64,000 nt of DNA from Bryopsis sp. KO-2023. Its lineage: Eukaryota; Chlorophyta; Ulvophyceae; Bryopsidales; Bryopsidaceae. Position numbers and translations under genes: made by a program. The notes beneath the pieces are model-generated. The model saw only the letters and a list, made by a program, of their open reading frames with translations, searched no databases and was not told the origin of the DNA. The stretch spans positions 6,324,001 through 6,388,000 of the forward strand of contig BSYQ01000003.1 in NCBI GenBank assembly GCA_030272585.1. Direction: 5' to 3'. Each line of letters starts with the position of its first letter. Position 1 is the stretch's first letter. Below are positions 17,669 through 50,246 of this stretch, piece by piece.

Positions 17669-20391
17669 TTAAAAGGACATCGTTCCGGATCGGATGTTGA
17701 CTCGCTCATCCACCAATATGTTGAGTCTTGGCGCCAGAATTTTCACGTAGCGATCAAAGTAAAGAATTTGCTTCATTAACAGTCCAAATTCTCTGGGGAA
17801 TTTGATCCCATGCACTTCTCCAGCCTGGATGATTCGGAGAAGCAATCTGTTGAGCTCCTCATCGTCCATCATCACTTCGGCAGAAACGGAAGGGGCTGAT
17901 CGAGAAAACAGAAAATGAATGCAACACAAACCAACACCATCCCATTTGCTGCCCCACATCACCATGAAAAGGAAAACCCAGAGGAACAACGTTCTGTCTA
18001 TAGAAAATTCTGATGTCATGGCCATTTTTATTTCCACATACTTCGTATCCGTGTGAACGGCTCCTTGAAAAACTAGTCAGACATCTCACCTTCTCCCTGA
18101 GTGACCACCAGCTGCGAATCGATGCGGCCGACGTCAATGAAAATCTCTTTCAGATCTTTGGCCAGCAAATCGATGTTCACTTTCTGGTCGGTGGCTCCCA
18201 TCGTAGCCAATGCCCTGGCCATCATGTCGAAATCCTCAGATCCGGTAGAAACCAAGAGTGCTTCCACAGCCTTCCATGTGACAGGGTTGATTCTCCCAAC
18301 AATGCCAAAATCGATGAAAGCCACCCGTCCATCAGAAAGCACAAGGAGGTTTCCTGTGCAGCCATCATAAATATATCGATTCGTTCAACAGGGCACCACA
18401 TTTTCGAAAGAAAACAAACGAAGATCGAACACCTGCTCCTACGATCCTCCACCACATCAAGGCCTCCACAATTTCATGAGTGGGCATGGTTTTTAACACA
18501 CCATGGATTTTCTCTCTCCCTCCCCTCCCTTCACATGCCCAATCAAAAGTCAACAGGAGTAACAGTGAATTTAAAATCAATCGACCCACCTGCATGTACA
18601 TCAGCATGGAAAGTCTCCGCTTGAAGCACACTTCCAAACCAAGTGTTGAGTGCTGCAATCAACACCATTTCAGGATTCGCGCTGCTGACTTTCTCGATGG
18701 CTTCCAAATCGATCAACGCAGCCCCATAGAACCTCTCCATCGTCAACACCCTGCGAATCCACATTCAAATACATATATGAGGACAGATTTGCCAGGCCCC
18801 ACACACAGTCTGACTCAATCAGGGAAATCTACATTTAAAATCGCGAGATGGTCACCAACTGCCCATACGGAAGGATAACTGTAAATATTTCTCGCACGGT
18901 TTTCTCAATTCCAGGGCTGAAATCTATGCCAATCATTCATTTTCATTCTCAAAGCTTCAAGGGCGCAACCTTCTCCAAATCCCCGAATTTTCCTGCAAAA
19001 ATTTCCACTCTCACTTTTCTGCCGAGTATTGCTTGTAAACATAGGGGCATGTGGCGAATCGATCCATGCCGGATTCCCGCAGGTAAGCCTCGAAATGAGT
19101 GATGTGTTGAGCTTCCTTTTTGAAATCCACCTCCTCTTGAATGGTCCTCCGAATGTCACTGACAATTCCAGACAAAGAGGTCCTCGACAACTCGGGACTC
19201 AGAACTTCAAGGAATCGGGAACCAAGGTAAAGGAAGTTGAGATCCGCAGTCAACACGTCCTCCACGCCAGGCTTCAACACCTGCCAACCATTGCGAAGAT
19301 TCATGATTTGCCATTCACTTTCGTTGCTTCCCCTCGTTTTCTCTTTATTTATTTTATTTTTTAGAATCTTTTTTACTTGTTAGTTTTTTTTTGTAATAGC
19401 TCAAGCTGGGGGTGAACTGAGACGAAGACTGACTGGAAAGAGCCTCATTATCAAGCGAAAAAATTATTCAATAAAATAAAGGACCCAGAATGTGGAATGT
19501 GTTCGAAAGGTGTTGCTCTTCGAGGGATGCAAATCAAACTATAAGCTTGGTGTTGGGTGTAGAAATTATCAAAAAGATTTCTGACCTCTGGAAGCAACCC
19601 TTTGGAGATTTATTAGAAGCTTGAGCCAACAAGAAGTAGAATTACGTAACGGTTACTGTCCCGTGAAAGGAATTCCGACTAGGGTTTGTGTTCTCAAGAA
19701 TTCCCCCGAAAGGACCCTAGCGTTTGTGCATTCTCACCTTGATAACAACCGGTTTCATGCTTCCCTTCAAGACCGCAGCGTGCACTTGGGCCACCGACGC
19801 ACTCGCGAGTGGTTCGGGATCGATTCGCTCGAAAACCGATTCCACTGGCTGGCCAAGCTCATCGGCGATCCTCTTGCGAATGACCTCGTAGGGAACAGGA
19901 CTAGTACTGTCCAGGCACTTTTGGAACTCCAGGACGTATTCTGGTGGGAAAAGCGTCGGCGAAGATGCGATAAACTGACCCAATTTGATATACGTCGCCC
20001 CCAGACGCTCGAACAGTTTGCGGAGCACGCGTTCAGGAGGGTCGACGGAACCTCCACGCGTGTACTCTCGCAAAGTCAGGAGGATGGCATTCGTTGCTTG
20101 AGCGCTGCGAGTCAAGCCCTTCGTTCCCGACTCCAAAAGAATCTTGATTGTTTCCTGGATAAGATCGGGAACCAGGGGCGCCCTCGTGGATACGAAATCT
20201 ACCGGGTCGAAGTTGATGCTCGGCCTGCGGGCAGCATTAGATACGACCGACTTCCTCGAGGGGTTTCGCCTCGAGAAATCGGTCCCAGCGGGACGTCCTG
20301 CACTAAAACTTTGGCCACATCCTAACCGAAAAGGCGTCTTTAAGAAACAACCTCCACAAATTCTTCCCGATGCCTGGCCTGTGGACTGCAT
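17669..20391 (-). CDS. ABC1/ADCK (UbiB-like) atypical kinase, probably organellar
   Basis: Five exons, 20391-19738, 19280-19015, 18750-18590, 18353-18090 and 17895-17669, sum to 1,572 nt (523 aa) with all phases matching. Family marks are present in order: the KxGQ motif in GATYIKLGQFIASSPTLFP, the alanine/serine-rich loop LASASVAQVHAAVLKG, the VAIK-like lysine in KPVVIK, the VLTME hinge, the catalytic loop HADVHAGN split over exons 3 and 4, and the DFG motif in VAFIDFG. These proteins act in quinone and prenyl-lipid metabolism in mitochondria and plastids. The N terminus (residues 1-50) is rich in G, S, R and hydroxylated residues without acidic residues, consistent with a transit peptide. 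The ATG at 20391 was chosen because upstream in-frame sequence is unlike protein. It lies head to head with the LTP-like gene. Confidence 0.88.
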
Positions 20392-20980
20392 TTTAAGAAA
20401 CGAGCCCCAACCTTCCCGCGACTGTCCGGCGTGCACCCGTGAGCGCGGATATCTATGCTGAACTTGGCGGTGGTGTGTTTGTGACACACGATGACAAAAC
20501 GCCAGATTGAAAGTTACTGGATTACAATCCACCAGGATGATAATTTCTTGCTGGAAAATTCGATTTGCTTTAAAAGGATGGCTAGGGATTTTGTCAGACT
20601 GCTTGTTGAGTGATTGTGTTTCTTTTTCTTGTGAGTGTGATAATATTGTTTTTGTTGGGAAGCAAGCGTATGTCTGGCGGCGGATGCGGACTGAGGCGTT
20701 CCTTCCAAGATAATTTTCTCTTGGAAGATTCAAGTGTTCTCCTCGCGGAAAGAGCTCTTTTCTCTCAGTCTGTCCGAATATGAGCAAGACCATTTAGGAG
20801 CGGCACGCTACTGTCCGCTTGGATCGTGAAATTCAGGGAGGGCGGGCGTACAAATTGCCAGCGCTCGCTCAAGGGGATCGCATCGAAAAAGTGTACCCAG
20901 TGGAAGACGAAATCGGAATCGACTGAACACCCACAGCTCATATCTCTTCAGCGAGGCAGTCTCAAGGGTACCACATCAGA
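20392..20980. promoter_or_regulatory. Divergent 5' interval between the ABC1-kinase and LTP-like genes
   Basis: This 589-base spacer has open frames continuing from the kinase but no independent gene. A bidirectional promoter is inferred from the head-to-head arrangement; no core element is recognisable. Confidence 0.35.
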
Positions 20981-30950: not shown

Positions 30951-33389
30951 ATGACATCCTCCAGTACTTCCGATACGTCTGTCAATGCCCAGGTTTCCGA
31001 ACCGTTGCCAGGGCCAGGGCCAGCGCCCATTACAGGGACGGGGACGGCCGGGGTGCAGTTCCAGCCCGTTCCGTTTGAGCAGCTCGGCATCCAAAACATC
31101 ACTGCCATGAACAATTTTTCGCAAACGAGCACAGAAGAGCTGAGAGCGCAGGATTACAGGCAGAACAATGCGACCCCACCCACTGCCCCGTCTGTAGCGG
31201 TTTCGGAGGCTCAAGTACAGGGCGAAAACAGCGGGCCATCCTTATTTGGCGCTCAAGCACCGCGCGCAAATTCTGTGTCGGACGGGTTTGGTTCAGTCCA
31301 ACAGGCCGGGTTTGGAAACTTTGGAATGCCTGTTCAGTCGATGCCGGGATCCCTGTTTGGAGGCCCCGCACAGGAAAACGGTGGCGGAGGACTATTTGTT
31401 TCGAGTGTTTCAGGTGGTGGCACTGGTGGAGGAGGGTTTGGTTCTGGTGTAAATGGATTTGGACAGGGAGGTTTAGGCTCTGGATTTGCTCCAGCCCAGA
31501 ACACCTCCGGTGCAGGTTTCGGACAAACCAGTGAGGGTTTCAATTCTGGATTTGCTGCTTTCCAGAACAATTCTGGTGGAATGTGGGGGCAAATGAGCGA
31601 GGGTTTCAATTCTGGGTTTCCATTACAGAACACTGCCACCAGCACTCCACCTGGTGCAACTGGTTTTGGATTTGGAAATAATGGTTTCGGTCAGACTTCA
31701 GAGCCAGCCCATGGGCCCACCTCTGGATTGCAACAGGGCGTCTTCATGAATCTACCAAATCAGGGAACCGGTGGAGGTGGTGGTGCATTTGGAGCAGCGA
31801 ATCAAGGAGCTGGTGCTGGTGGGGTTGGGTTTGGCTTTGGGCCACCCAGTAAAGCTGCTACTTTCAGAGCCGGTTTGAACGCACAAAGTCAAGCACCTAC
31901 TGGTGGAAGCTTGTTCGGACAGCCTGCAGCAAATCAAGGTGCTGGGGGTGGTGCCTTGTTCGGCCAACAAAATTCTGGTGCTTTCGGTGGCAGTCTGTTT
32001 GGTGGACAGAACCAAGGGCATGGTGGTGAAAGCAATTTGTTCAACCCCCCAAGTTTGTTTGGTCCTAATGCTCCCAGGAGCAACGTGTTTGGGCAAGCCA
32101 GATTTGGTAGTGGTGGTCTGTTTGGTCAACCCAACCCCAGAGCTACCAGAGTGAGTCTGTTTGACCAACTCAATCCCAGAGCTGCCAGAGGAAGTCTGTT
32201 TGGTCAGCCCAACCCCAGAGCCGCTGGGGGAAATCTGTTTGGTCAGCCCAACCCTGGTGCTGCTGGGGGTAATCTAGCCGCTGGAGGTGGTCTGTTTGGT
32301 CAGCCCAACCCTGGTGCTGCTGGGGGTAATCTAGCCGCTGGAGGTAGTCTGTTTGGTCAGCCCAACCCTGGTGCTGCTGGGGGTAATCTAGCCGCTGGAG
32401 GTAGTCTGTTTGGTCAGCCCAACCCTGGTGCTACTGGGGGTAATCTTGCCGCTGGAGGTAGTCTGTTTGGCCAACCCAGCCCTGGTGCTGCTGGGGGTAA
32501 TCTGTTTGGGCAGCCCAACCCTGGAAATGGTGGCAATGGGTTTGGGCAACAGAATCAGGCAACTGGAGGTGGCAGTCTGTTTGGACAAGGTTCTGGAACT
32601 AGCCTATTCGGCCAACCACAAGCTGTTTTTCCACAGAATACACCGGGGGTGGCCGCTGTGCAAGCCGCTGTGCAAGCTGGTGGTGTTCAGCCCACCCAAA
32701 CCACAGGTGGAGTAGGATTTGGTGTCGTAAACAATGAAGCTGAAGAAACTTCTGCAGAAGAAGCTCCTGCCGAAAACAATCCTCAAGAAAATGCCCAAGC
32801 GGAAGAGCGAAACAGCAACATTGTTGGCTCTACCATCGAGGTTTCTGGAGTTGTTTCTGGGCAGAATGGTGGCCAGCCAGCAAATGGCTTCGAGGGAACG
32901 AGCAGTGGGATTGCCCCAAGTGAATTGGCTGTTCAGGCACTTGCTGATCTACCCAAGAAGCCTCCCCCTCGTAGCTTCATCTGTCCGATTGGCTTGAGGA
33001 TCATGAAGAAACCAGTGACAATGGTGTCCACAGGTAATGGTCAGCCACAATCTGGTGGATATAAGTCAGTCATAGCACTTTTCCATGAACGGGCTGCACT
33101 CGGCCTTTTGATCTTCTGTAGATTAATTTCTTTTTCTTTTTCTTAATTTTGGATTTAAGGTCTGGTTAGGGCTACAGGAAACCTTGGAGTTGATGTGTTG
33201 GTGTTTTTTTTTATTTTGTTCCCAGGGATATCATACGATAAGCAGAGCTTGGAGTCGTGGTTTGCTGCTCGAAATTTGCCAGTCCCCCCAACCATGGAGA
33301 ACAAGACTCTAGAAGATTTGATCGAGGAATGGCAGGTGGAATATGAAGAAAACTCGGTGCCGACCCCCAAGGATGAAAAAAAGGAATAA
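30951..33389 (+). CDS. Nup98-like GLFG-repeat protein with a C-terminal U-box
   Basis: Two exons, 30951-33033 and 33226-33389 (2,247 nt, 748 aa), joined at a phase-1 GTAATG...CCCAG intron. Residues about 43-73 (FEQLGIQNITAMNNFS then EELRAQDYR) match the 'ItaM...EELR..DY' segment typical of Nup98/Nup145N proteins. Residues about 85-585 are FG-rich with many SLFGQ/GLFGQ units separated by G, N, Q, P and A spacers, the composition of a nuclear-pore permeability domain. From residue 676 a U-box begins: FICPIGLRIMKKPVTMVST, then GISYDKQSLESWF and P-T...LEDLIEEW, the fold of RING-like E3 ubiquitin ligases. No Nup98 autoproteolytic domain is visible. The exon boundary falls inside the U-box, so the fusion rests on an in-phase splice. 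A role as a pore-associated ubiquitin ligase is inference. Confidence 0.85.
32235..32503. repeat. 57-bp coding minisatellite in the GLFG region
   Basis: Units beginning CTGTTTGGTCAGCCCAACC recur at 32235, 32292, 32349, 32406 and, as a variant, 32463, a period of exactly 57 bases (19 codons). Each encodes one LFGQPNPGAAGGN unit plus an LAAGG linker. Near-identity of the central copies implies recent expansion or unequal exchange. Confidence 0.9.
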
Positions 33390-34579: not shown

Positions 34580-34906
34580 TGTTGGACCGGGTAGAACACA
34601 AGTACTGAAAGACAGACATAAGAGCGTCACATCAACAAATTCACACAACGGACACTCATTTCTAATGAAAGTACTACCACACGATTTGACTCTGAGAGCG
34701 ATGTCAAATCTGTTGAATCGACTGGTCAGTGCGGGTGAGAGGCCCATGGCAGTAGGGGATTTACGTTAGAAGTACGAGGTATGAGTCAGTGGAGGAAGTG
34801 TGAGAGTTGAGTGAGTCGGGAAGGAAAGTCTGTGAACGGGAGTTCGGGGTTGTCTTTTTGTTGTAAGACTTTTTTTTGCGGAAGGCTCGTTCTTCCAGTA
34901 ACAACA
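34580..34906 (+). repeat. 5' long terminal repeat (327 bp)
   Basis: Begins TGTTGGACCGGG and ends CCAGTAACAACA. It is identical by eye to 41174-41500. Its final A is also the first base of the gag-pol ATG. Confidence 0.95.
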
Positions 34907-37900
34907 TGGTTTCGGAGCGAACAGGGTGGATCCTGGCCTTTGGGGGCTTGGCTCTACTAGCCGGTATGTCGCTGCTGTTACAGCGACCACCGACGATATC
35001 AGATCAAAATGCGGCGCCGGCAACACCAGCCGGAAGGGCGCCAGCAACGTATCCCCCATCACCTCCTCCATTCTCTACGCCTCACACGCCCAGAACGTCT
35101 CCACACGAGCTCTGGCAGAGGCTGATGTGGTCGATCAGACATCGACACTCACATCGTGCCCTACCCTCCCCTTCACCGAACCCCGCTGCTGCGTGGGACA
35201 CCCTGGAGCTTGTGCAGCTTGCAGACAGGATGCACAAGCTCTGGGGTGTCTTGCGGGGATCCAACGCCAACCTGGTCGGAGCTGGGATCGCCTCCTCGCT
35301 TCTGCTGGGGTACCTCCTGAAGTTCCTCGACAAGGGTTCTGCATGGTTACGGCGGCGTAGAACAGAGACGGCGATGAGAAGGGAAGTTTTGGAGCTCGGG
35401 AGCGCGGCGCCTGCGGCTTCGGTTTCGACGGAGGGATCAGCCACGTTGGACAGACTTCGGCGGCTGCAACAAACGGAGGGGGAGACGGAGTTGGAATTTT
35501 TGCAGCGTTATTTCTTGATGTTTTTAAACACTGGACAAGCGGCGGAGGTGGAAGAGGAGAAAAAAGCGGTCAGGTTACTCGTAGCCCGGTTACCGGGAAG
35601 AGTGTTGAGCCGCGTCGTGGTGGAAACAGAGTTCGAAAAACTGACCTTCAGCGGACTTCGGGAGCTGTTGGATCGAATGAAGAGGAGGACGGAGTACAGG
35701 GAAGCAGTGCTCGCGGAAGTGAAGAAGGATGAGGAGGGAAAGACAGAAGGGAAAGTGGAGGCTAAAGCAGAACCTAATGCGGGAACGAAAGTTCTGGTGG
35801 CGGACCGGCCACCTACTCGGACAGGCGAGACCCCTCTCTGCCAGTTTTGCGGACGGAAAGGGCACTGGGAAGCGCAGTGCCGGACGAAGAGGAGAGCGCA
35901 GGTGGCGAGCGTGAACGACGATGCTTTCGGCGAGCTGCTGGAGGCAATACAAAACGAGCAGTCGTCGTCGGCGTGCCATTCGGTCGCAGCAGGGACACCC
36001 GCTGGAGATACAGTGCGCAAGCAGCTTCGTGTGAAACTCAGGTTGGAAGGAGAACAGAGAGGAAGTAATCAACTCTTCGAAGCGTTGGTCGACAGTGGAA
36101 GTGGATGCTCCATCATGCCGTGGAAGGTTTGTCAAAGACACGGATGGGGAGTCGCTCCTCCGAAAGGAGTGTTAACGCTGACCGGGTTCAACGGAAGCAA
36201 GGAGAACGTGCGAGGGACGGTGACGCTCGACGTCAAAATAGGACCGTGGGAGGGAAAAGAAGTGTTTCTGGTTTCGGAAAACACATCCCAGATTATCCTG
36301 GGCGTCCCCCTCCTCGCACACCTTTCCCTCACCGTCGACTGCGCTCGCAACTGCCTCTGGGGCAAGAACGGAACGTCCATCCCTTGCCACGCAGTCATGA
36401 AGGTAGGGGAGAAGTCGGGGGAGTTAGAGCGGGGTGTGGTTCGAGTGCTGCAAGACCCCCTCACGAAAAAAGGACGCAGGATTCGTTTAGTGGGGAAGGA
36501 TGGGGAGTTTCGGTTACCCCTGGGTTCGTCGTTGGTTCTGGGACCCTACGCGATTAAAACGGTTGTTCTTCCTTTTCGAATTACTGGGCCTGGCCTGTTT
36601 TCGTTAATGGCCATAGGACAACCCCACAACCTCCTTCACTCTGTGACGACGAACTCCGACGGAAGAGTTCGACTCACGCTGTATAACGCCCAGTTGGAGG
36701 CGAGGATGCTTACTGCAAAACTGTGTTTGGTTAGCTTCAGGGTGGCTGAGGGAACGCCGGTGGTGATAGAGGAAGGAGGAGCAGAGGAGGAATGTGTCGA
36801 ACAGGAGGAGGATGGTTTACTGCCCCATGGTTTGGATCTCAGAGAGAAGGAGGAAGTGGAACCTGAGGAGGAGGGGTGTTTTGGGATTGAAAAGAAGGGA
36901 GATGGAGGATGTCAAACAGTTTCTTTTCCACCACAGGAAGTGGAATCTGAGGAGGGGGGGTGTTCTGGAATAGAAAAACAGGGAGATGGAGGATGTAAAA
37001 AGGTTTCTTTTCCACCACCAAAGAATGACTGTGGGTCACTGGAAGTGTTTGACAGAACCAGTGGTTCAAAGGGCAGTTGGGGCACAATGCAGTCGAATCA
37101 GGACTGGGATTCACAAACAGGCCAGCTTGCATCTGTTGAACAGCAGTTGAGCCCAGAGGGGGACAGTAGAGTACTATCGAATTCTGCCCAAAACAGGGAT
37201 ATACCGACCATCAGTTCAGACTCTGGAGAACAGCATCTCAGTTCAGGGGATGGGTGTGTGTTACGGAGTTTAACAACACAGAACAGTGAGGCTGTAGCTA
37301 CTGAGAATCCAACAAACAGTGCAACACTGAGGAAGAGCCAGAGCACAGCCTCTCTCACAGAACTGGATGTGAGTTCTGCTACGCACTATCCACTCAGGGA
37401 CAGGATTGAGGGGAAAGACTCTGAGAATGAGGGGAGAACACAGACATCAAACACAGACTTTGAATGTCAGCCCAATAACTATAATGCTACTGGACAGTTC
37501 ATCAGTTCAGCTAGGGAGAAGGGAGGAAAGATTTTTGGCTTACAAACCAGCAGTTCAGAGGCTGTACATCACTTACCCAAGTCAGATACTCAGGGAAGGG
37601 TACAGCAGTCGAAATTCCACACACAGGAGGAGAATGTAGCTTCTGAGAGTCCTGCAAACAGTGCTACACTGGGGACAAGCCAGGGTACATTCTCCACCCC
37701 CCAGCAGGATCAATGGAGGGACTTACCAAGGGGGAGAGAGGGACAGACATGTGGGGAAAACCAAGGCACCCAGAGTGTCCTCACACCTAACCGCCTGACT
37801 GCACACAGCACTCTGCTGCAAGAAAGCAAAGCTGTAGCTACTGAGAGTCCTACAGACAGGGAAACATTGGGACAGAGCCAGAGTACAGTTCAGAGTTCAC

Positions 37901-40900
37901 AAAAGGAAAAAGGGGGCTGCTCACCCAGGGGGGGGGTAGTCGGGGCAGTGGAACAAACACACAATGAGGGACCGACTGTAACTACTGAGAGTCCCACTAA
38001 CAGTGACATACTGGGGAAAAACCAGAGTTCAGTCTCTCACCTTCAAGAGGAAACATTACTCTGCTCACCCAGGGGGGGGGTAGGGGGGACAGTGGAACAG
38101 GAGCACCTTGATCTCTGGAAGTACTGGGAAGCCCTCAGAGGGAAACCACCAGGCAGAAGTTTTAGCGAACACACTACATCCTCTTTATCTCACCTGACGA
38201 CGATTTGGGAGGAGGTGGCTGACGACCTTCTCGACAACACCACAGCAGTAGGGACAGGGGAAAGACTCTGGAACGGACATACTGCTACGGTGCAAACCAC
38301 TCAGGAACAACCTGCCTGCACGTCGGAAACGCAGTCAGAGACGGAGGATACAGGCTCAGTGGAATACTGGCGACGCGAATTTCCGAACGTGATTCGTGAC
38401 GACCTTAGCAGAGACGCAAAGGCGACTGCTGCTCCTCTTCGGGTTTGCCACAGGGAGGTGAAATGGCGCGTTCCCTTCCACAGGATTCCGCTGCACAACA
38501 CGGGGATACGGTACTACGCCACCGACGTCGCGCCTAAGGAGATTCGAAAACTGCTTACCTCGTTGCAGGGGCAAGGCGTCATCCGTCCCCTGGGCGTCGG
38601 CGAGCGGGCTCTGTTCTCCCCCGTACTTTTCCTAAGGAAGCCGAATGGAAAGGTCCGTAAGACGGTGGATTTTCGTGTGCTGAACTCGTACTCCGACGCC
38701 TGGAAGACGTCCCTGCTCCATGTCCGGGATGTGCTGAAGTCGATCCCACCTGAGTGGGACTACTTCACCGTCCTGGATCTGGAGCAGGGCTTCTTCCAGG
38801 TGGACGTTTGCGATTCGCTCCAGCCCCTCTTCGCGTTTGAAACCGGAGAGGGGGACTACACTTACCTCCGCCTTCCACAGGGATGGAATTGTTCGCCAGG
38901 GCTGTTCCACTCCCGCATTCGGAGCTCTATCCACGGATACCCCGGTCGTAACTTCGTCGACGACCTCATAATCGGCGGAGAAGGCGTCGAAGGCCATGAC
39001 AGGAACCTGCGACGTGTTCTGACCAGGCTCGACGAAATGGGATTACGGATAAACAGGGCAAAGGCGGTCGTCAGACAAAAGGAGGTTACCTACTTGGGGT
39101 ACACGGTCACGAAGGGGAGCTACGGCCTTCGACGCTACGTCGACGACCAAGTGCGTCAGTTGCCAGAAATGCGCGACGTCAGGGACGTCCGTCAATTCGT
39201 CGGCATGCTTAATGTCTGCAGGGGAGTTTGCCCGAATTTCCATAACATCATTCAACCTCTGCTGGAGCTTCCCAAGGGATCGAATCCGAAACTCATGCAA
39301 CAGTTGGTGGCAGAAGCATGGAAATCCATACTGACTAATAATGTCAAGTTGGGTAATTCAGATTCTGGAGAGTATAATCTGTTTACAGACTGGTCATCCT
39401 CTGGGTGGGGGTATGTTCTGTTCAGAGGTACCCCCTCAGAGGGGTGTATCGTCAGCCTCAACAGTCGAAAGTGTGCGGATAAGGGAGGAGAAAAAGTCAG
39501 CTCCTATTTGGGGGAGCTTCAAGCTCTCATATGGGCATTGAAATCGGTTTCACAGGTGGTGGCTGGGGGTCAGCTAACCCTGCACACTGATTCGAACTCA
39601 GCAGTGCAAAGGATTACGAAGTTAGCACCGAAAGAAGTCGTGGAGGACATCAGAGTGGTGCGTCTCTTGGCTTGGTTGGCAGAGAACTACCCCTCCCCTG
39701 GAAGGTTGAGGGTTCAATTCCTGCCAGGGACATCTAACCCTTGGGCTGATCTCCTGTCTAGATGGTACAGTAGGCCAACACAAACACAAGGGCAGGTGTG
39801 TGCACTTGAACCACAAGGGATGCATATCAGTAAAAACACAAGCATGGAATCAGGAGGATCCAACAGATCAACAGAACAGGTGCTGGAGCAGGCTGAGGCA
39901 GTGGACTCTAAAGAGAGTGATTCAGGAAGGTCTGGCATGTCAGGAAACACAGAGTTGGGACATGCATATACAGGAGGCTCAAGGGGAGAGGAGTTGGGCA
40001 AGATAGCGGAAGGGAAAGAGCTGAGCAGAGATCAGCTGGAACGGTTGCACAAGGAGGGACACTGGAGCCCACAAAAATTGCTATGGCTGTGTGCACAACA
40101 TGGATGGAAGGCTAATAGAGGAGATCTGGAGGAAATTCAGAGGTACTGCCAGACCTGCCAGAGGGTAGCCCCTAAGAAGGAAAAAGAACTTCTTAGGGGA
40201 GCTGGGCATCTAACCCACCCTGGTCAAACAGTGGGCATGGACATCATCGGTCCACTACCCTCTGGTAGGTCTGGCCACAATCATATAGTAGTGGTGGTGG
40301 ACCACCTCTCTCGTGATTCGATGGTTTGGAAGACAAAGGAGGTGAAGGGGAAACAGGTCAGAGAGTGTTTAGGTGAGTGGATAGCGACTCATGGATCTCC
40401 AGACAACCTATTATGTGATGGAGCTGCCTACTTCCATTCGAAGGACATGAGAGCATGGTACAAAGACAACCACATTCAGGTTTGGAGGACACCCCCTTAT
40501 CACCACAGAGCGAATGGAGTGGTGGAAAGGAGGAACAGAGCTCTGATTTCTAAAATCAGAGTACTGTTGTTGGATCATGGAGGGTATTGGGATGATTGGC
40601 TGCAGAAGGCCAACTGGATGGTCTGCAACATGGTGAATAGAACCACTGGATGGCCACCATGCAAAGTGTGGACACTATCAAGCAAGGAGTGGGATAGAAT
40701 TCAACAGAGATTGAAGGAAAGCAGAGAAAAGGTGAATGCACAGAAAAAATTGTCTGACTGGAATCATTTTCTGGGAGAGGAGGTCCTTTTATATGATTCA
40801 GCAAGGGCTGAAAAAAAGGATCAGAAATTTAGTGCAAGTTGGAAGGGACCATATAAAATAGTGGAACTGATTTCCCCCAGTCGAGTCAGGATTGAGGAAA

Positions 40901-40974
40901 TCAATGGCAAACTCAGGAGGGGTAGGAAACCTTTCCTAGAAGTGCACAAATCACAGATCAGGCACTTCTTCTGA
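34906..40974 (+). CDS. Gag-Pol polyprotein of the LTR retrotransposon
   Basis: A single frame of 2,022 aa from ATG 34906. Residues about 8-28 are strongly hydrophobic, unusual for Gag. A second hydrophobic stretch lies near 130-145. The CCHC zinc knuckle CQFCGRKGHWEAQC is at 312-325. The aspartic protease active site is ALVDSGSG (D396). A low-complexity, repeat-bearing region of about 500 residues (roughly 625-1130) lies between protease and RT. RT carries FVDD at 1350-1353 in place of the usual YxDD. RNase H starts near FTDWSSSGWG (D1495). Integrase has the HH-CC finger (H1715 to CQTC at 1748) and a catalytic triad D1779, D1838 and E1874, the last two separated by exactly 35 residues. No frameshift separates gag and pol. 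The next in-frame ATG is at residue 20. Confidence 0.93.
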   Translation: MVSERTGWILAFGGLALLAGMSLLLQRPPTISDQNAAPATPAGRAPATYPPSPPPFSTPHTPRTSPHELWQRLMWSIRHRHSHRALPSPSPNPAAAWDTLELVQLADRMHKLWGVLRGSNANLVGAGIASSLLLGYLLKFLDKGSAWLRRRRTETAMRREVLELGSAAPAASVSTEGSATLDRLRRLQQTEGETELEFLQRYFLMFLNTGQAAEVEEEKKAVRLLVARLPGRVLSRVVVETEFEKLTFSGLRELLDRMKRRTEYREAVLAEVKKDEEGKTEGKVEAKAEPNAGTKVLVADRPPTRTGETPLCQFCGRKGHWEAQCRTKRRAQVASVNDDAFGELLEAIQNEQSSSACHSVAAGTPAGDTVRKQLRVKLRLEGEQRGSNQLFEALVDSGSGCSIMPWKVCQRHGWGVAPPKGVLTLTGFNGSKENVRGTVTLDVKIGPWEGKEVFLVSENTSQIILGVPLLAHLSLTVDCARNCLWGKNGTSIPCHAVMKVGEKSGELERGVVRVLQDPLTKKGRRIRLVGKDGEFRLPLGSSLVLGPYAIKTVVLPFRITGPGLFSLMAIGQPHNLLHSVTTNSDGRVRLTLYNAQLEARMLTAKLCLVSFRVAEGTPVVIEEGGAEEECVEQEEDGLLPHGLDLREKEEVEPEEEGCFGIEKKGDGGCQTVSFPPQEVESEEGGCSGIEKQGDGGCKKVSFPPPKNDCGSLEVFDRTSGSKGSWGTMQSNQDWDSQTGQLASVEQQLSPEGDSRVLSNSAQNRDIPTISSDSGEQHLSSGDGCVLRSLTTQNSEAVATENPTNSATLRKSQSTASLTELDVSSATHYPLRDRIEGKDSENEGRTQTSNTDFECQPNNYNATGQFISSAREKGGKIFGLQTSSSEAVHHLPKSDTQGRVQQSKFHTQEENVASESPANSATLGTSQGTFSTPQQDQWRDLPRGREGQTCGENQGTQSVLTPNRLTAHSTLLQESKAVATESPTDRETLGQSQSTVQSSQKEKGGCSPRGGVVGAVEQTHNEGPTVTTESPTNSDILGKNQSSVSHLQEETLLCSPRGGVGGTVEQEHLDLWKYWEALRGKPPGRSFSEHTTSSLSHLTTIWEEVADDLLDNTTAVGTGERLWNGHTATVQTTQEQPACTSETQSETEDTGSVEYWRREFPNVIRDDLSRDAKATAAPLRVCHREVKWRVPFHRIPLHNTGIRYYATDVAPKEIRKLLTSLQGQGVIRPLGVGERALFSPVLFLRKPNGKVRKTVDFRVLNSYSDAWKTSLLHVRDVLKSIPPEWDYFTVLDLEQGFFQVDVCDSLQPLFAFETGEGDYTYLRLPQGWNCSPGLFHSRIRSSIHGYPGRNFVDDLIIGGEGVEGHDRNLRRVLTRLDEMGLRINRAKAVVRQKEVTYLGYTVTKGSYGLRRYVDDQVRQLPEMRDVRDVRQFVGMLNVCRGVCPNFHNIIQPLLELPKGSNPKLMQQLVAEAWKSILTNNVKLGNSDSGEYNLFTDWSSSGWGYVLFRGTPSEGCIVSLNSRKCADKGGEKVSSYLGELQALIWALKSVSQVVAGGQLTLHTDSNSAVQRITKLAPKEVVEDIRVVRLLAWLAENYPSPGRLRVQFLPGTSNPWADLLSRWYSRPTQTQGQVCALEPQGMHISKNTSMESGGSNRSTEQVLEQAEAVDSKESDSGRSGMSGNTELGHAYTGGSRGEELGKIAEGKELSRDQLERLHKEGHWSPQKLLWLCAQHGWKANRGDLEEIQRYCQTCQRVAPKKEKELLRGAGHLTHPGQTVGMDIIGPLPSGRSGHNHIVVVVDHLSRDSMVWKTKEVKGKQVRECLGEWIATHGSPDNLLCDGAAYFHSKDMRAWYKDNHIQVWRTPPYHHRANGVVERRNRALISKIRVLLLDHGGYWDDWLQKANWMVCNMVNRTTGWPPCKVWTLSSKEWDRIQQRLKESREKVNAQKKLSDWNHFLGEEVLLYDSARAEKKDQKFSASWKGPYKIVELISPSRVRIEEINGKLRRGRKPFLEVHKSQIRHFF
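34907..34922 (+). promoter_or_regulatory. Putative primer-binding site
   Basis: TGGTTTCGGAGCGAAC starts immediately after the 5' LTR. TGG is the complement of tRNA CCA, and the rest resembles in form the initiator-methionine-type site (TGGTATCAGAGC) with changes. It overlaps the beginning of the coding frame. The cognate tRNA is not in the window. Confidence 0.6.
36870..38110 (+). repeat. Repeat-bearing low-complexity insert between protease and RT
   Basis: Degenerate repeats encode related peptides: two GIEK.GDGGC..VSFPP units (near 36885 and 36966), four (S/N)P(T/A)(N/D)...TL(G/R).(S/N)Q(S/G) units (near 37308, 37645, 37847 and 37993) and two CSPRGGV.G.VEQ units (near 37918 and 38062). The region is rich in S, T, Q, E and G. 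It stays in frame throughout. Confidence 0.75.
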
Positions 40975-41173
40975 GTAGAATGGTGGTGATGAGAGAATAG
41001 GTAGGACCAGAAGACATAGTAAACGGAGGAGAGAAGGTTTCTTTTACATCCGGTGAGGGATGTTTTTTCTGATGAAACACAGTGTAGGAGAAGGCTACAC
41101 TGGTGTGGAAGTGAGGATATTAGTTTATTCTACCACGAGTAGAACTTTTTCGGAGGTTTGAGGCAGTGAAGCG

Positions 41174-41500
41174 TGTTGGACCGGGTAGAACACAAGTACT
41201 GAAAGACAGACATAAGAGCGTCACATCAACAAATTCACACAACGGACACTCATTTCTAATGAAAGTACTACCACACGATTTGACTCTGAGAGCGATGTCA
41301 AATCTGTTGAATCGACTGGTCAGTGCGGGTGAGAGGCCCATGGCAGTAGGGGATTTACGTTAGAAGTACGAGGTATGAGTCAGTGGAGGAAGTGTGAGAG
41401 TTGAGTGAGTCGGGAAGGAAAGTCTGTGAACGGGAGTTCGGGGTTGTCTTTTTGTTGTAAGACTTTTTTTTGCGGAAGGCTCGTTCTTCCAGTAACAACA
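41174..41500 (+). repeat. 3' long terminal repeat (327 bp)
   Basis: Same sequence as 34580-34906, followed by the right copy of the GTGT target duplication (41501-41504). Confidence 0.95.
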
Positions 41501-41820
41501 GTGTTGTAAATATTAAAAAGGGACCACAATACAACCCGACGTTCCCTTAAATCCTCCACACCCTCTCCAATCACCCTACGATTACATAATCAATTGCGAA
41601 GACAATCCATGGGTTTTCTGCAGTGTTTTATCCAATCTCTCAATTTTTTCCAATGCCCTTCAGAGGACTGTTGGAAAAAGTGGTGCGGAGCTATCAAGAA
41701 GCCACCAAACAGCAGGTGACACCTGACAAGCAGCTGCTTTCGTACGATCACCCCTTTAAACTTGCCTCAGTTTTGTTGGCTGTTTCGTCCGGATTGTTAT
41801 TTTTCCCAGAAGACGTCAAG
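41501..41820. other. 5' flank of the aspartyl-tRNA synthetase gene
   Basis: The reading frame of the synthetase stays open back to an ATG at 41623, but the added 66 residues lack similarity to the family. The retrotransposon ends only 321 bases before the preferred start codon. Confidence 0.4.
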
Positions 41821-43425
41821 ATGTCTCATTGGGACGAACGTCAGTTGACAGTTATCGAGCCCGCTGAGGAGCCAGGCCTGAGCAAAAAAGCCTTGAAAAA
41901 AGCGGCCGCGAAGGAAGCGAAAAAAGCCAAGCAACAGAACCAAAAGCAAGAAGCCCCCACGCAGCCTGATCCCAACGACCCGCTGAAAGATCGCTATGGC
42001 GACTCGCCCCTGATCCAAAGTAGAGCTGTGACAGGCCAGAAATGGACTGCAGCGGGATCTCTAACGGAAGCGCTGGTGGACACGACGGTTTTGGTCAGAG
42101 GTCGAGTGCATGCCGTACGAGGGAAAGGAAAGTCCTGTTTTCTGATCTTGAGGGACAGAACTGCCACCGTGCAAGCGGTGTTGTTCGCTGATGATGAGAC
42201 TGTGAGTCGGCCAATGGTCAAGTACGCGATGGGTCTGTCGAAAGAGTCCTTGGTGGACGTGGAAGGCTTGCTCGTGAAGCCAGCGGTGCCGATCGAGTCT
42301 TGCTCCCAAAAGGAAGTCGAACTCCAAGTGAGGAGCGTGCATTGCATTAGCAGATCGGAGACGCTTCCTTTTCAGATCTCTGATGCCGCAAGGCCGGAGG
42401 CTGTGGCCAAGAGTGGAGGGGATTCTGGGGAGAAGTTCGCCACAGTTTTGCAAGACACGAAATTGGACAACAGATATTTGGACTTGAGGACACCAGCCAA
42501 CCAAGCCGTTTTCAGAGTGCAGAGTTCTGTCTGTCAGTTCTTCAGGGGAGCTCTGCTAGAGGAGGGCTTCATGGAAATCCACACCCCCAAGCTGATTGCT
42601 GGAGCCTCTGAAGGAGGAGCCTCGGTGTTTCACCTTCAGTACATGGGACAGCCAGCTTGCTTGGCTCAATCCCCACAGCTGTACAAACAAATGGCGATTT
42701 GTGCAGACATGGACAAGGTCTTCGAAATCGGGCCAGTTTTCCGGGCGGAAAATTCCGACACCCATCGGCATCTGTGTGAATTCACAGGGCTGGATTTTGA
42801 AATGACGATCAAGGAGCACTACTTCGAGGTGCTTGACGTGGTGGAAAAGGTTTTCGGAACGATTTGCAATGGGCTGGAAGAGAAGTGCGCTTTGGAGTTG
42901 GACGTTATTCGGGAGCAATACCCCTTTGAGCCTTTCAAATTCAAGCCGGTGCGTCTGCCGTTTTCGGAGGGGATTCAAATGCTGAGGGACGCGGGCTACA
43001 CAGCAGGGGACCATGACGATTTAACCACAAAGCTGGAGAAAACTCTGGGAAGCCTGGTGAAAGAAAAATACGGCACGGATTTTTATATCCTGTACAAATA
43101 CCCGATGGCGATTCGGCCCTTCTATACCATGCCGTGTGCAGACGATGCCGCCTACAGCAATTCTTACGATGTGTTCATGAGGGGGGAAGAAATCATTTCG
43201 GGGGCTCAACGGATTCACGATCCGAATTTGCTGGTGGAGAGGGCGAAATTTTGGGAAATCCCCATCCCCACCTTGCAGTCTTACATCGATTCGTTCAAAT
43301 TAGGGGCTTCTCCCCACGGAGGAGCTGGAGTGGGTCTGGAAAGAGTGGTGATGTTGTTCTGCGGGCTCAACAATGTCAGGAAAACATCTCTATTCCCACG
43401 CGACCCCAAACGATTAACACCCTGA
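41821..43425 (+). CDS. Aspartyl-tRNA synthetase, eukaryotic cytosolic type
   Basis: Intronless, 534 aa from the ATG at 41821. The lysine- and alanine-rich N-terminal extension (KKALKKAAAKEAKKAKQQNQ) is typical of eukaryotic lysyl/aspartyl synthetases and helps tRNA binding. An OB-fold anticodon-binding domain follows (VLVRGRVHAVRGKGKSCFLI). The class II catalytic domain shows motif 1 (EGFMEIHTPKL), the flipping/QSPQLYKQM region, motif 2 (FRAENSDTHRHLCEFTGLDF) and motif 3 (GAGVGLERVVMLF). The C terminus NNVRKTSLFPRDPKRLTP is canonical, so the gene is complete. The enzyme charges tRNA-Asp in the cytosol. An in-frame ATG at 41623 would add 66 residues and could create a second localisation, but codon content there is poor. 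Lack of introns is unusual for this window. Confidence 0.95.
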   Translation: MSHWDERQLTVIEPAEEPGLSKKALKKAAAKEAKKAKQQNQKQEAPTQPDPNDPLKDRYGDSPLIQSRAVTGQKWTAAGSLTEALVDTTVLVRGRVHAVRGKGKSCFLILRDRTATVQAVLFADDETVSRPMVKYAMGLSKESLVDVEGLLVKPAVPIESCSQKEVELQVRSVHCISRSETLPFQISDAARPEAVAKSGGDSGEKFATVLQDTKLDNRYLDLRTPANQAVFRVQSSVCQFFRGALLEEGFMEIHTPKLIAGASEGGASVFHLQYMGQPACLAQSPQLYKQMAICADMDKVFEIGPVFRAENSDTHRHLCEFTGLDFEMTIKEHYFEVLDVVEKVFGTICNGLEEKCALELDVIREQYPFEPFKFKPVRLPFSEGIQMLRDAGYTAGDHDDLTTKLEKTLGSLVKEKYGTDFYILYKYPMAIRPFYTMPCADDAAYSNSYDVFMRGEEIISGAQRIHDPNLLVERAKFWEIPIPTLQSYIDSFKLGASPHGGAGVGLERVVMLFCGLNNVRKTSLFPRDPKRLTP

Positions 43426-47341: not shown

Positions 47342-50246
47342 ATGAGAGCAGGATTCTCGGGCCGAGCTTTGCGGTCGGAAACCCCCTGCCTGCCTCGCGC
47401 GTTTGTACCAGCTCGACGAAGGGCTGATTTTGGGGTTTCCGCACCTCCAGGTAAATAATCAGCCCATCGATGCGAGACTATGGAACCCACATTTTTCCAG
47501 AAGATGTGTTGACTAAACAAATATGATGACTAAAGCTGATTTGCAGATTTGAATTCAAATCTGAATTCTTTGGACTGGCACTGTCCATCAGAACATGCAT
47601 CAGAAACCAATCAGCTGAAACTTATATGGGGTCTATTATCACCGTATAACCATTTATCTATCATCGATCATATCAATGCTATGCTATATTTCTCCCATGC
47701 GTGTGTGTTTTTCCTAAAAAGTGTGTGTTTCCTCCTCTCAGGACGGCTGGTGGCCAAGAGGTTGAGATTACCTCCTCTGGCACCATGCCCAGCAGCATCG
47801 GCGGCCTCCATCCCTCCCGCACCTCCTCCCAGCGACAGAGAACCTCTGTTGACCAGCCTTCAAAGGCAGATCACCAAGTTCTCTCAGCTGTGGAGGAGCT
47901 TCCTGCCGATGTGCTCCCTCTTCTTCTTCATGTCGTTCATCAACACCATCGTCAACAGCCTGTCGTTGACTTTGGTGATAACCTCTGGAGGAGGGGGAGC
48001 ACAGGTGATTCCGTTTTTGACGGTATACGCGGCCTTCCCCACATCCCTGCTGTTCATGGTGGCGTATGCCTGGGCGTCGCACCACCTTGACAGGAAGCAG
48101 CTGTTCACTCTCATAGTGACGGCGTTCGGGGCGTTCAACCTGGCGTTCGCCCTGTTCCTGTACCCCAACAGTGGAGCCTTGCACCTGAATGGTGTGGGAG
48201 AAGCGCTGGCACAGGTGAGCGATGAACCTTCCATCGAGCAATGGTGTATAATGGAACAAAATTTCAAAAATTGATGCATTACATGCTGGTAAACGAATCC
48301 TGAAAACCGTGAGCAGCTTTTGATTGACTATCCCAAAAATGAGTAATATTTTACTCATCTTTGGCATTATGCACATGTTTCAGACCTCTATGTCGACCAT
48401 CCAATCATACAATGCAGCCTGGTGGTGGTGGTTTGAGGATACGTTCCAATTGCTTCCTGTGTGTTATGCATCAGGTGTTGCCGGCAGGGCTCGGGGGTGC
48501 AGTGGGGATGGTCCAGAATTGGACATTCACCCTCTTCTACTGCATGTCCGAGCTGTGGGGTGATGTAGGGTTGAGCCTTCTATTCTGGGGTTTCGCCAAT
48601 GAAATCACCAGTTTGGAAGATGCTCCTGTGCTCTACCCCCTGTTCGGCATCGGAGCAAACATCGCTCAAATGTTGGGCGGCATTGCTCTGCGAGTGCTGT
48701 CATCATCACAGCTGGCTTTCACTGACTCCCTCCAGAAAATGATACTCCTGGTGGTGGCATGCAAAGTCGTCGTCCTGATTTTGCACCACCACATACAGTC
48801 GAAATCTGGAGGTGGCCAAGTCAAGAAGGCGGAAGCTGTTGTCGCGGAGGGCAATGCTCTGGGTGGGGTGGCTAATCGGCAGTTCACGGAGTTTGACCGG
48901 GAACGCCTTGAATGGATGCTGGAGGATGACCACCGACACTATGGGGGAAAACTCAACAGGGCGACTTGGAGATGGAAACATCACCATGGTATGGCGCATG
49001 CCAGCCATAGCAACGGTGTGGTGCATCCTCCTACTCACTCCAGCTACGATTTCCACCAGTGGAGGACGGCTGAAACCGTTCGACGGAGATCTGGGAAAAG
49101 CGAGGTGGAAGCGAGTGTGGCGGAGAACGATTCCGTGGGCAAGGAAGGCGAGAAGAAAAAGAAAAGCCCGACGTTCATGGAAGCTCTCAAAACCTTGTCG
49201 AAAAGCCCTGCAATTCGAGCACTAGGGATGATGACGATCGCGCAGAGTCTGGCGGTCAATTTGATGGAATTCGTATGGAAATCTCACTTGCGGCTGGCGT
49301 ATCCCACGCCTGCAGCGTTCACTGGGTTCATGGGGGACGTCTCGACAGCAACAGGTCTAATCACGGCCATGCTGATGTTCGTTTCGCCCATCTTGTTCGA
49401 TCGAATGGGGTGGAGGGATGTGGCCAGCGTCACTCCGAAGCTGTTGTCCAGCGGAGGATACATCTTTTTCGGTGCCTGTCTAGCATATCATGTGCTGGCG
49501 AAAATGGGGATGGGAGTGGCATCTCAGGCACTGCTACCTTGGACGGTGATCGGAGGTGCCGTTCTATATGTGGTCGCTCGGGGAGCGAAATTCTCTTTGT
49601 TCAAACCTGCTGAAGAGATGGTGTACATCAAGCTGGACAAGGAGTCCCAGACGAAGGGAAAGGCGGCGATCGATGTCGTTGGGGCTCAAATGGGGAAGTC
49701 GGGTGGAAGCTTGCTGCAACAGGTACACATTCACATCCTTCCCTCTCATTTTGCCTCACTTTTATGTCCCTGGTTAATAATACTAATATTGGACGACTTG
49801 GGCTAAACCCCCCGACGTGTAACTAATATCGTTGCTTCCATCCTGTGTATGGAAGCTTTGCAAAACGAAACAAAACAGAAATGAAGTTGATTGTTCATAT
49901 TTGCAAGAATGATGAGCAATAACACCGGGTCCGAATCACTCCTTCGTTCCGCTTTCTTATGTTAAATTATTCTTTTTCTTCTTTCCAGGCTCTGCTGGTT
50001 GCGAGTGGAGGCACGCTGCTGGGAATCACTCCAGTTATTTTTGGGGTGTACGTGGCGATGCTGGTCGGCTGGCAAAAAGCCGTCGATGATTTGGCTTCCC
50101 AGCAAGAAGCATCCTCCACCTCGGTGGCATCTCCCAGTGTCGCTGGGCAGGTGCCAGCATCGTTGAAAATCCCTGATGCCGGCAGCCATGATAATGATGC
50201 TAACGGGGGCTCGTCCCTGGTTAGGGTATCTGCAGTGGCAGGCTGA
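47342..50246 (+). CDS. Plastid-type ATP/ADP translocase (NTT/TLC family)
   Basis: Four exons, 47342-47450, 47742-48214, 48475-49722 and 49989-50246, total 2,088 nt (695 aa), all phases consistent. Exon 1 encodes MRAGFSGRALRSETPCLPRA and onward, a basic transit-peptide-like leader without an N-terminal hydrophobic segment. The mature protein has multiple membrane spans, the first near SFLPMCSLFFFMSFINTIVN. The family signature is WTFTLFYCMSELWGDVGLSL followed by FWGFANEITSLEDA and YPLFGIGANIAQ. A histidine-rich hydrophilic loop of about 100 residues (HHHGMAHASHSNGVVHPPTHS) separates two halves of the membrane domain. C-terminal spans include ALLVASGGTLLGITPVIFGV. Such carriers import ATP into plastids in counter-exchange for ADP. 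Confidence 0.92.

Follow-up and report, generated by a model that had tools for sequence, protein, structure and literature searches.

The green alga Bryopsis sp. KO-2023 carries a gene which, by its domain matches, joins the tail of a Nup98-type GLEBS segment and a long FG domain to a C-terminal U-box. This composition suggests a ubiquitin-ligase-type enzyme that is able to enter the nuclear pore's own phase. We read the gene, tentatively and with close to even confidence, as a second, rearranged Nup98-type protein of the Bryopsis lineage, which lacks the anchoring domain of Nup98 and would act as a mobile FG/Rae1-directed ligase. FG domains decide what enters the nuclear pore, and an E3 with an FG domain of its own would, if this reading is true, provide ubiquitination with a built-in route into the FG phase. 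Bryopsis is a giant single-celled coenocytic green alga with many nuclei in one cytoplasm, and it is available in culture. Its genome was published in Plant J in 2024 (cited in PMC12509668). The assembly searched here comprises 91.1 Mb in 28 contigs, and the window, by which we mean the whole stretch of 64,000 nucleotides that was analysed, lies on contig C3.

The gene and its exons

Positions 30951-33389 of the window encode a protein of 748 residues that is identical over its full length to the public Bryopsis sp. KO-2023 model BSKO_04108 (P0001 in the following). Its parts, all on the forward strand, are:

30951..33033, +: exon 1, 2083 bases, residues 1-694 and the first base of codon 695, an open frame without stop; contains the GLEBS tail, the FG domain, the linker and the first half of the U-box
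31092..31157, +: C-terminal half of a Nup98 GLEBS segment, residues 48-69 (widest match 46-73); PF21240, under its cut-off
31218..32723, +: FG domain, residues 90-591, with 33 FG, 16 [GSAN]LFG (11 of them SLFG) and 3.6% charged residues; PF13634
32219..32503, +: within the FG domain, five tandem copies of a 57-bp repeat, which code for SLFGQPNPGAAGGNLAAGG-type units
32724..32966, +: linker, residues 592-672, which connects FG domain and U-box and is acidic over 601-660 (9 D/E, 1 K/R)
32967..33033, +: N-terminal half of the U-box, residue 673 onwards, with CPI and I680 in loop 1, sharing its exon with the FG domain; PF04564
33034..33225, +: intron of 192 bases, GTAATG...TTCCCAG, with a T-rich tract, phase 1, within the U-box; the spliced product equals P0001
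33226..33389, +: exon 2, 164 bases including the stop TAA; remainder of the U-box, namely its central helix with W706, then P715, the shortened loop 2 and the last helix, which runs to W730, followed by a charged tail

Spliced together, the two exons give 2247 bases in one frame. The frame, the coordinates and the 33033/33226 junction proposed in an earlier note on this DNA thus yield exactly the product of the public model, and the in-frame intron which the note had placed inside the U-box is found there as a GT-AG intron of phase 1. Whereas the frame of exon 1 contains no stop, 18 and 22 stops are present in the other two forward frames. As CPIGLRIMKKPVTMVSTG is already present in exon 1, the junction between FG domain and U-box lies inside a single exon. 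Because the first half of the U-box shares this open exon with the FG domain, it is unlikely that two separate genes with separate mRNAs are involved; judged from the sequence, a two-gene account would require an unseen intron or promoter within the open frame.

Domains of the encoded protein

The FG units of the protein begin at residue 99 and end at residues 590-591, and the Pfam profile Nucleoporin_FG (PF13634) matches with 34.9 bits as compared to a cut-off of 32.2. Neither the number of FG (33, shuffle mean 10.5) nor that of [GSAN]LFG motifs (16, shuffle mean 0.27) was reached by any of 2000 shuffles. The FG domain that had been read from the letters is therefore supported by its FG count and by a profile match over the cut-off, though exact GLFG occurs only twice, as opposed to 11 occurrences of SLFG. 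With 6.6 FG per 100 residues and 3.6% charged residues the domain deviates from the medians given for Nup98 FG domains, 9 FG per 100 and 2.5% charged residues (PMC4283134). The canonical Nup98 of the alga, encoded on contig C9, has 10.4 FG per 100 and 0.0% D/E after its GLEBS segment and 9.7 and 2.2% before it, against 6.6 and 1.6% in the window gene. Two more Pfam matches of the protein, Nsp1_C and zf-Nse, are both under their cut-offs. In the genome, PF13634 at E<=0.1 gave four matches, two of them in the window gene, where the top score is 38.6 bits, and the others in a gene on C4; the profile missed the canonical Nup98 on C9 and is thus a poor census of FG proteins. The C4 gene (L043, C4:489001-493000), as judged by eye, consists of FG-rich followed by coiled-coil-like exons and is probably Nup62.

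The N-terminal segment, which the earlier note had described as Nup98-type, appears to match the GLEBS tail, as the canonical Nup98 on C9 does, but its score stays below the threshold of the profile: Nup98_GLEBS (PF21240) gives 20.6 bits on the whole protein and 23.4 on the 102-residue N terminus, with a cut-off of 27. The same profile finds three places in the genome, namely the canonical Nup98 (29.5 bits), the window gene (24.2) and a weak third (16.4), and the first two match by the same profile positions 18-39, i.e. by the C-terminal half only. The best ungapped score between the window N terminus and the GLEBS tail of the C9 gene is 69, which none of 2000 shuffles reached (shuffle maximum 40). 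Four of the 177635 distinct sequences in the PDB match the N terminus at E<=10, all of them on the GLEBS tail (E 0.11-0.18); three of these chains carry the name Nup98, and the other one, with the same aligned letters, is called 'Peptidase S59 domain-containing protein'. Presumably these four chains are GLEBS peptides in Rae1 complexes.

The C-terminal U-box (PF04564, residues 673-730) scores 26.2 bits against a cut-off of 21.4, covering profile positions 2-57 of 73, and 31.4 bits when the 92-residue tail is searched by itself. PF04096, the Nucleoporin2 domain, is absent among the Pfam matches of the protein at E<=10, in keeping with the claim that a U-box has taken the place of the Nup98 autoproteolytic domain. 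Compared with two other Bryopsis U-boxes the domain scores 105 and 115 (0 of 2000 shuffles each). Nine chains of solved structures match the U-box tail at E<=1, led by 7c96 (E 8.5e-7) and 1t1h (E 1.2e-6), which we take to be the plant U-boxes PUB13 and PUB14, respectively; bacterial LubX chains and PUB12 follow. The nearest solved U-boxes by sequence are thus those of plant PUB13, PUB14 and PUB12, interleaved with LubX. The plant proteins differ from the window protein in that they have a full loop 2 and are not known to carry an FG domain. In an AlphaFold model of P0001 from single sequence the mean pLDDT is 36.8, and only the blocks at about residues 691-730 average 51-72.

Where does this U-box come from? 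A genome search gave 53 exon-level U-box matches, 47 of them over the cut-off; the window U-box is not among the 53, probably because it is cut by the intron. After itself, the top genome relatives of the U-box tail are nine places on C4 and C19, with 40-47% identity over the aligned parts. On C4, at about 5.2-6.05 Mb, and on C19 lie U-box genes that are related to one another and show the pattern PPPEFFCPI..EIM..PVVL.ETAVTYD. In a tree of 22 rows, made up of the window U-box and 21 hand-picked Bryopsis U-boxes (four joined by hand), the window U-box groups with C4 U-boxes of the same genome at 86/91, a fork left unstarred by the program. Its branch is the longest in this tree (3.13; next 2.3; median 0.72), and the program warns that the placement of so long a branch is unsure. 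Identity over the full length of the domain does not separate the C4 group from other Bryopsis U-boxes, as L030 (C1), L023 and L020 (C4) tie at 40%, L037 (C1) has 39% and the C4 members range from 32 to 40%. The position of the intron appears to be shared by none of the other split U-boxes compared by eye in translated frames (L028, L029, L030), the nearest being that of L029, about 2 codons off. Taken together, these sequence comparisons moderately support an origin of the U-box from the alga's own U-box family.

The domain is the most diverged of the 22 compared. Its loop 2 is about 9 residues shorter than in most of the 21 U-boxes it was aligned with, the gap lying between the loop-2 proline and the helix ENK..L..LI..W, and the window U-box reads KKPV where 20 of the 21 have DPV or EPV. 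By hand mapping on the alignment, I680, W706 and P715 correspond to the loop-1 aliphatic, the helix aromatic and the loop-2 proline, which are described as E2 contacts in studies of CHIP, Prp19 and IFT172 (PMC2396629, PMC13290226). No arginine is found where CHIP has R272. That the window U-box acts as a ligase is plausible from these residues, and we leave it uncertain because of the longest branch and the shortened loop 2.

Canonical Nup98, Rae1-like genes and searches elsewhere

The earlier note proposed to look in related algal genomes for a separate canonical Nup98; in the genome of this alga such a gene is present on the minus strand of C9 (L013, C9:996001-1003500), and it comprises an FG exon, the GLEBS half found also in the window gene, and a Nucleoporin2 domain. 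One of its exons was matched by PF04096 (positions 2-65 of 148), and the following exons were read by eye. When the genome was searched with PF04096 exon by exon, with 2 candidates scored, no match besides that on C9 was obtained. With canonical Nup98 the window gene shares a long FG domain and, apparently, a GLEBS tail of the pattern Q-N-I-S/T-x-M ... S-x-E-E-L-R-x-Q-D-Y. Different from canonical Nup98, including the C9 copy, it contains a U-box instead of Nucleoporin2 and has a lower FG density, and its GLEBS tail lies ahead of all FG units, whereas in canonical Nup98 it lies between them. Because the Nucleoporin2 domain is absent, the window protein should not be named Nup98.

Read with hand-made splicing, the C-terminal domain of the C9 gene seems to end soon after VWRFK, without the HFS cleavage motif that is known from animal Nup98. 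Nup96 matches are found on C8 (C8:1856240-1857719; L050, L051), and Nup96 and Nup98 are thus not joined as they are in animals.

An approximate Rae1-like query found two Rae1/Gle2-like genes, at C12:3453850-3455908 (L047) and C7:2531410-2533802 (L048). Both look intact, with four exons each as joined by eye, and they agree at 276 of 347 aligned positions (80% identity). A further, more distant match to this query lies on C14 and is possibly Bub3. That one genome encodes two GLEBS-type proteins along with a pair of Rae1-like genes invites the hypothesis that they pair. The ELYS profile, used for HOS1, had no match, and its control likewise matched nowhere.

Protein searches, which scored just the candidates sharing most words with the query, gave no ortholog outside Bryopsis sp. 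KO-2023. With the U-box region as query, the single match among 101 candidates at E<=1e-3 was the protein itself. With the whole protein, 8 of 7991 scored candidates matched, and the two of these that carry both FG and U-box labels are the protein itself and P0005, a protein of 624 aa from a 2210-base contig of a JGI metagenome. Close-relative scans of viral contigs returned one pattern stretch for P0005 and nine for P0001, none of which was confirmed.

The first 420 residues of P0005 as query retrieved 14 of 7995 scored proteins, namely 13 members of one family (P0005, P0009-P0020) and a U-box kinase, P0021. All 13 are metagenomic proteins, and several members are near-copies of one another. 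Both the family and the window gene combine a U-box with LFG-type motifs, but in the family an N-terminal U-box is followed by a conserved middle domain and an LFG tail, whereas the U-box of the window gene is C-terminal. All members except P0016, which has none, contain at least two [GSAN]LFG motifs (12 of 13), a number reached by 0 or 1 of 2000 shuffles; plain FG counts are weaker in P0011, P0012, P0017 and P0018, being equalled or exceeded by 7 to 88 of 2000 shuffles. Some LFG motifs lie near residue 200, inside the middle domain, the tails range from rich (P0005) down to one or two motifs, and the FG Pfam label is found on P0005 only. The AlphaFold model of P0013 has a mean pLDDT of 60.5, with the U-box stretch partly under 50, and compared with the PDB it gave no match at E<=0.001 (52 at E<=10). 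With P0012 as query the Bryopsis genome gave 14 matching places, none of which extends beyond residues 6-131 of the query.

We rejected P0005 as a true relative of the window gene. In BLASTP of P0001 against P0005 FG repeats and U-boxes align among the matches listed, but the strong alignments are those between FG repeats, the domains stand in the opposite order, and P0005 gave no GLEBS match. When P0001 was aligned with P0021 and seven members of the P0005 family, the U-boxes were not in register. The family would at most represent a second, separate joining of the two domain types, and the tails of its members may simply be of low complexity.

Possible function and its alternatives

How might the window protein act? 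We suggest that its GLEBS tail would bind Rae1/Gle2, that its FG domain would make it soluble in the pore's FG phase as well as in FG-rich bodies, and that its U-box would recruit an E2, such that proteins associated with Rae1 or FG domains, among them export factors, FG nucleoporins and the protein itself, could become ubiquitinated. It would then be a mobile, partitioning ligase and not a fixed component of the pore. The autoproteolytic domain of Nup98 is described as its anchor to the pore scaffold (PMC4283134), and since this scaffold-fixing domain is missing, a mobile FG/Rae1-directed ligase is likelier, by this comparison, than a pore-fixed one.

But would such a protein not simply join Nup98 in the pore channel, as a stable component and resident ubiquitin ligase, as the earlier note supposed? 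The FG domain and the apparent GLEBS tail resemble those of Nup98, Rae1 could hold the protein at the pore, and a ligase at the plant pore has a precedent in HOS1. This protein of the NPC Y-complex shares with the window gene the idea of an E3 at the pore; it is of the RING type and scaffold-bound, and we know of no FG domain in it. It is reported as a plant pore component that acts as an E3 ligase (PMC12626886). The Nucleoporin2 anchor is, however, absent from the window protein and has its sole genome match on C9, and nuclear puncta are described for NUP98 fusions that have lost the C-terminal targeting signal (PMC11423334), so that we consider pore residence unlikely. The main rival to a mobile ligase is that the U-box has lost its ligase activity and serves as a protein- or ubiquitin-binding module, which would make the gene product a ubiquitin-reading FG protein or a decoy. 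To our knowledge IFT172 is not an FG protein, yet like the window protein it is a protein of the transport-machinery type that ends in a derived U-box. In this IFT-B scaffold protein TPRs precede a C-terminal U-box-like domain that is discussed as a binding module (PMC13290226). The divergence of the window U-box, with its shortened loop 2, longest branch and KKPV, would fit such a loss, but I680, W706 and P715 are, by the hand mapping, still compatible with E2 binding and the Pfam score is still over the cut-off, and we therefore regard this alternative as rather improbable, if the strongest of those considered.

It is very unlikely, in our view, that the gene is decaying or mis-modelled, i.e. 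that a Nup98 duplicate has run into a U-box fragment without selected function or that the assembly has joined unrelated parts. Such an account could draw on the finding of the gene in one species only, within searches of word-sharing candidates, on the diverged U-box, on the seemingly young LTR element 1.2 kb downstream and on the fact that BSKO_04108 derives from the same organism and hence is no independent proof. Yet 748 codons are open, the intron signals are good and the junction lies inside one exon; moreover, over the full domain no relative exceeds 40% identity with the U-box, and yet the U-box has kept its core, which would hardly be expected without selection.

The mobile, FG/Rae1-directed ligase that we favour has its closest parallel in layout in the NUP98 oncofusions of leukaemia, in which FG and GLEBS are likewise retained and the C-terminal anchor is replaced. 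These are somatic rearrangements in humans with other partners, whereas the window gene is part of an algal genome and carries a U-box. It could thus be seen as their natural counterpart, with the C terminus of Nup98 swapped by evolution and not by cancer. Keyword searches of open-access literature returned no report of a nucleoporin-U-box protein. A broader and distinctly doubtful proposal is that FG-bearing ubiquitin ligases arose more than once, in Bryopsis with FG domain then U-box and in an uncultured lineage with U-box then LFG tail, that they dissolve in the FG phase and ubiquitinate pore or export factors, and that in the coenocytic alga the Nup98-U-box protein, with a Rae1 paralog of its own, might tune or turn over pores nucleus by nucleus.

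The neighbourhood of the gene in the window contains, at 34580-41473, what is by eye a probable LTR retrotransposon, in which identical direct repeats of 300 bp (34580-34879 and 41174-41473) flank one open frame of 2035 codons; it looks recently inserted. Further open frames of the window match a class II tRNA synthetase of the D/K/N type (41590-43425), a TLC ATP/ADP transporter (48343-49806) and an ABC1 kinase-like domain (19717-20793).
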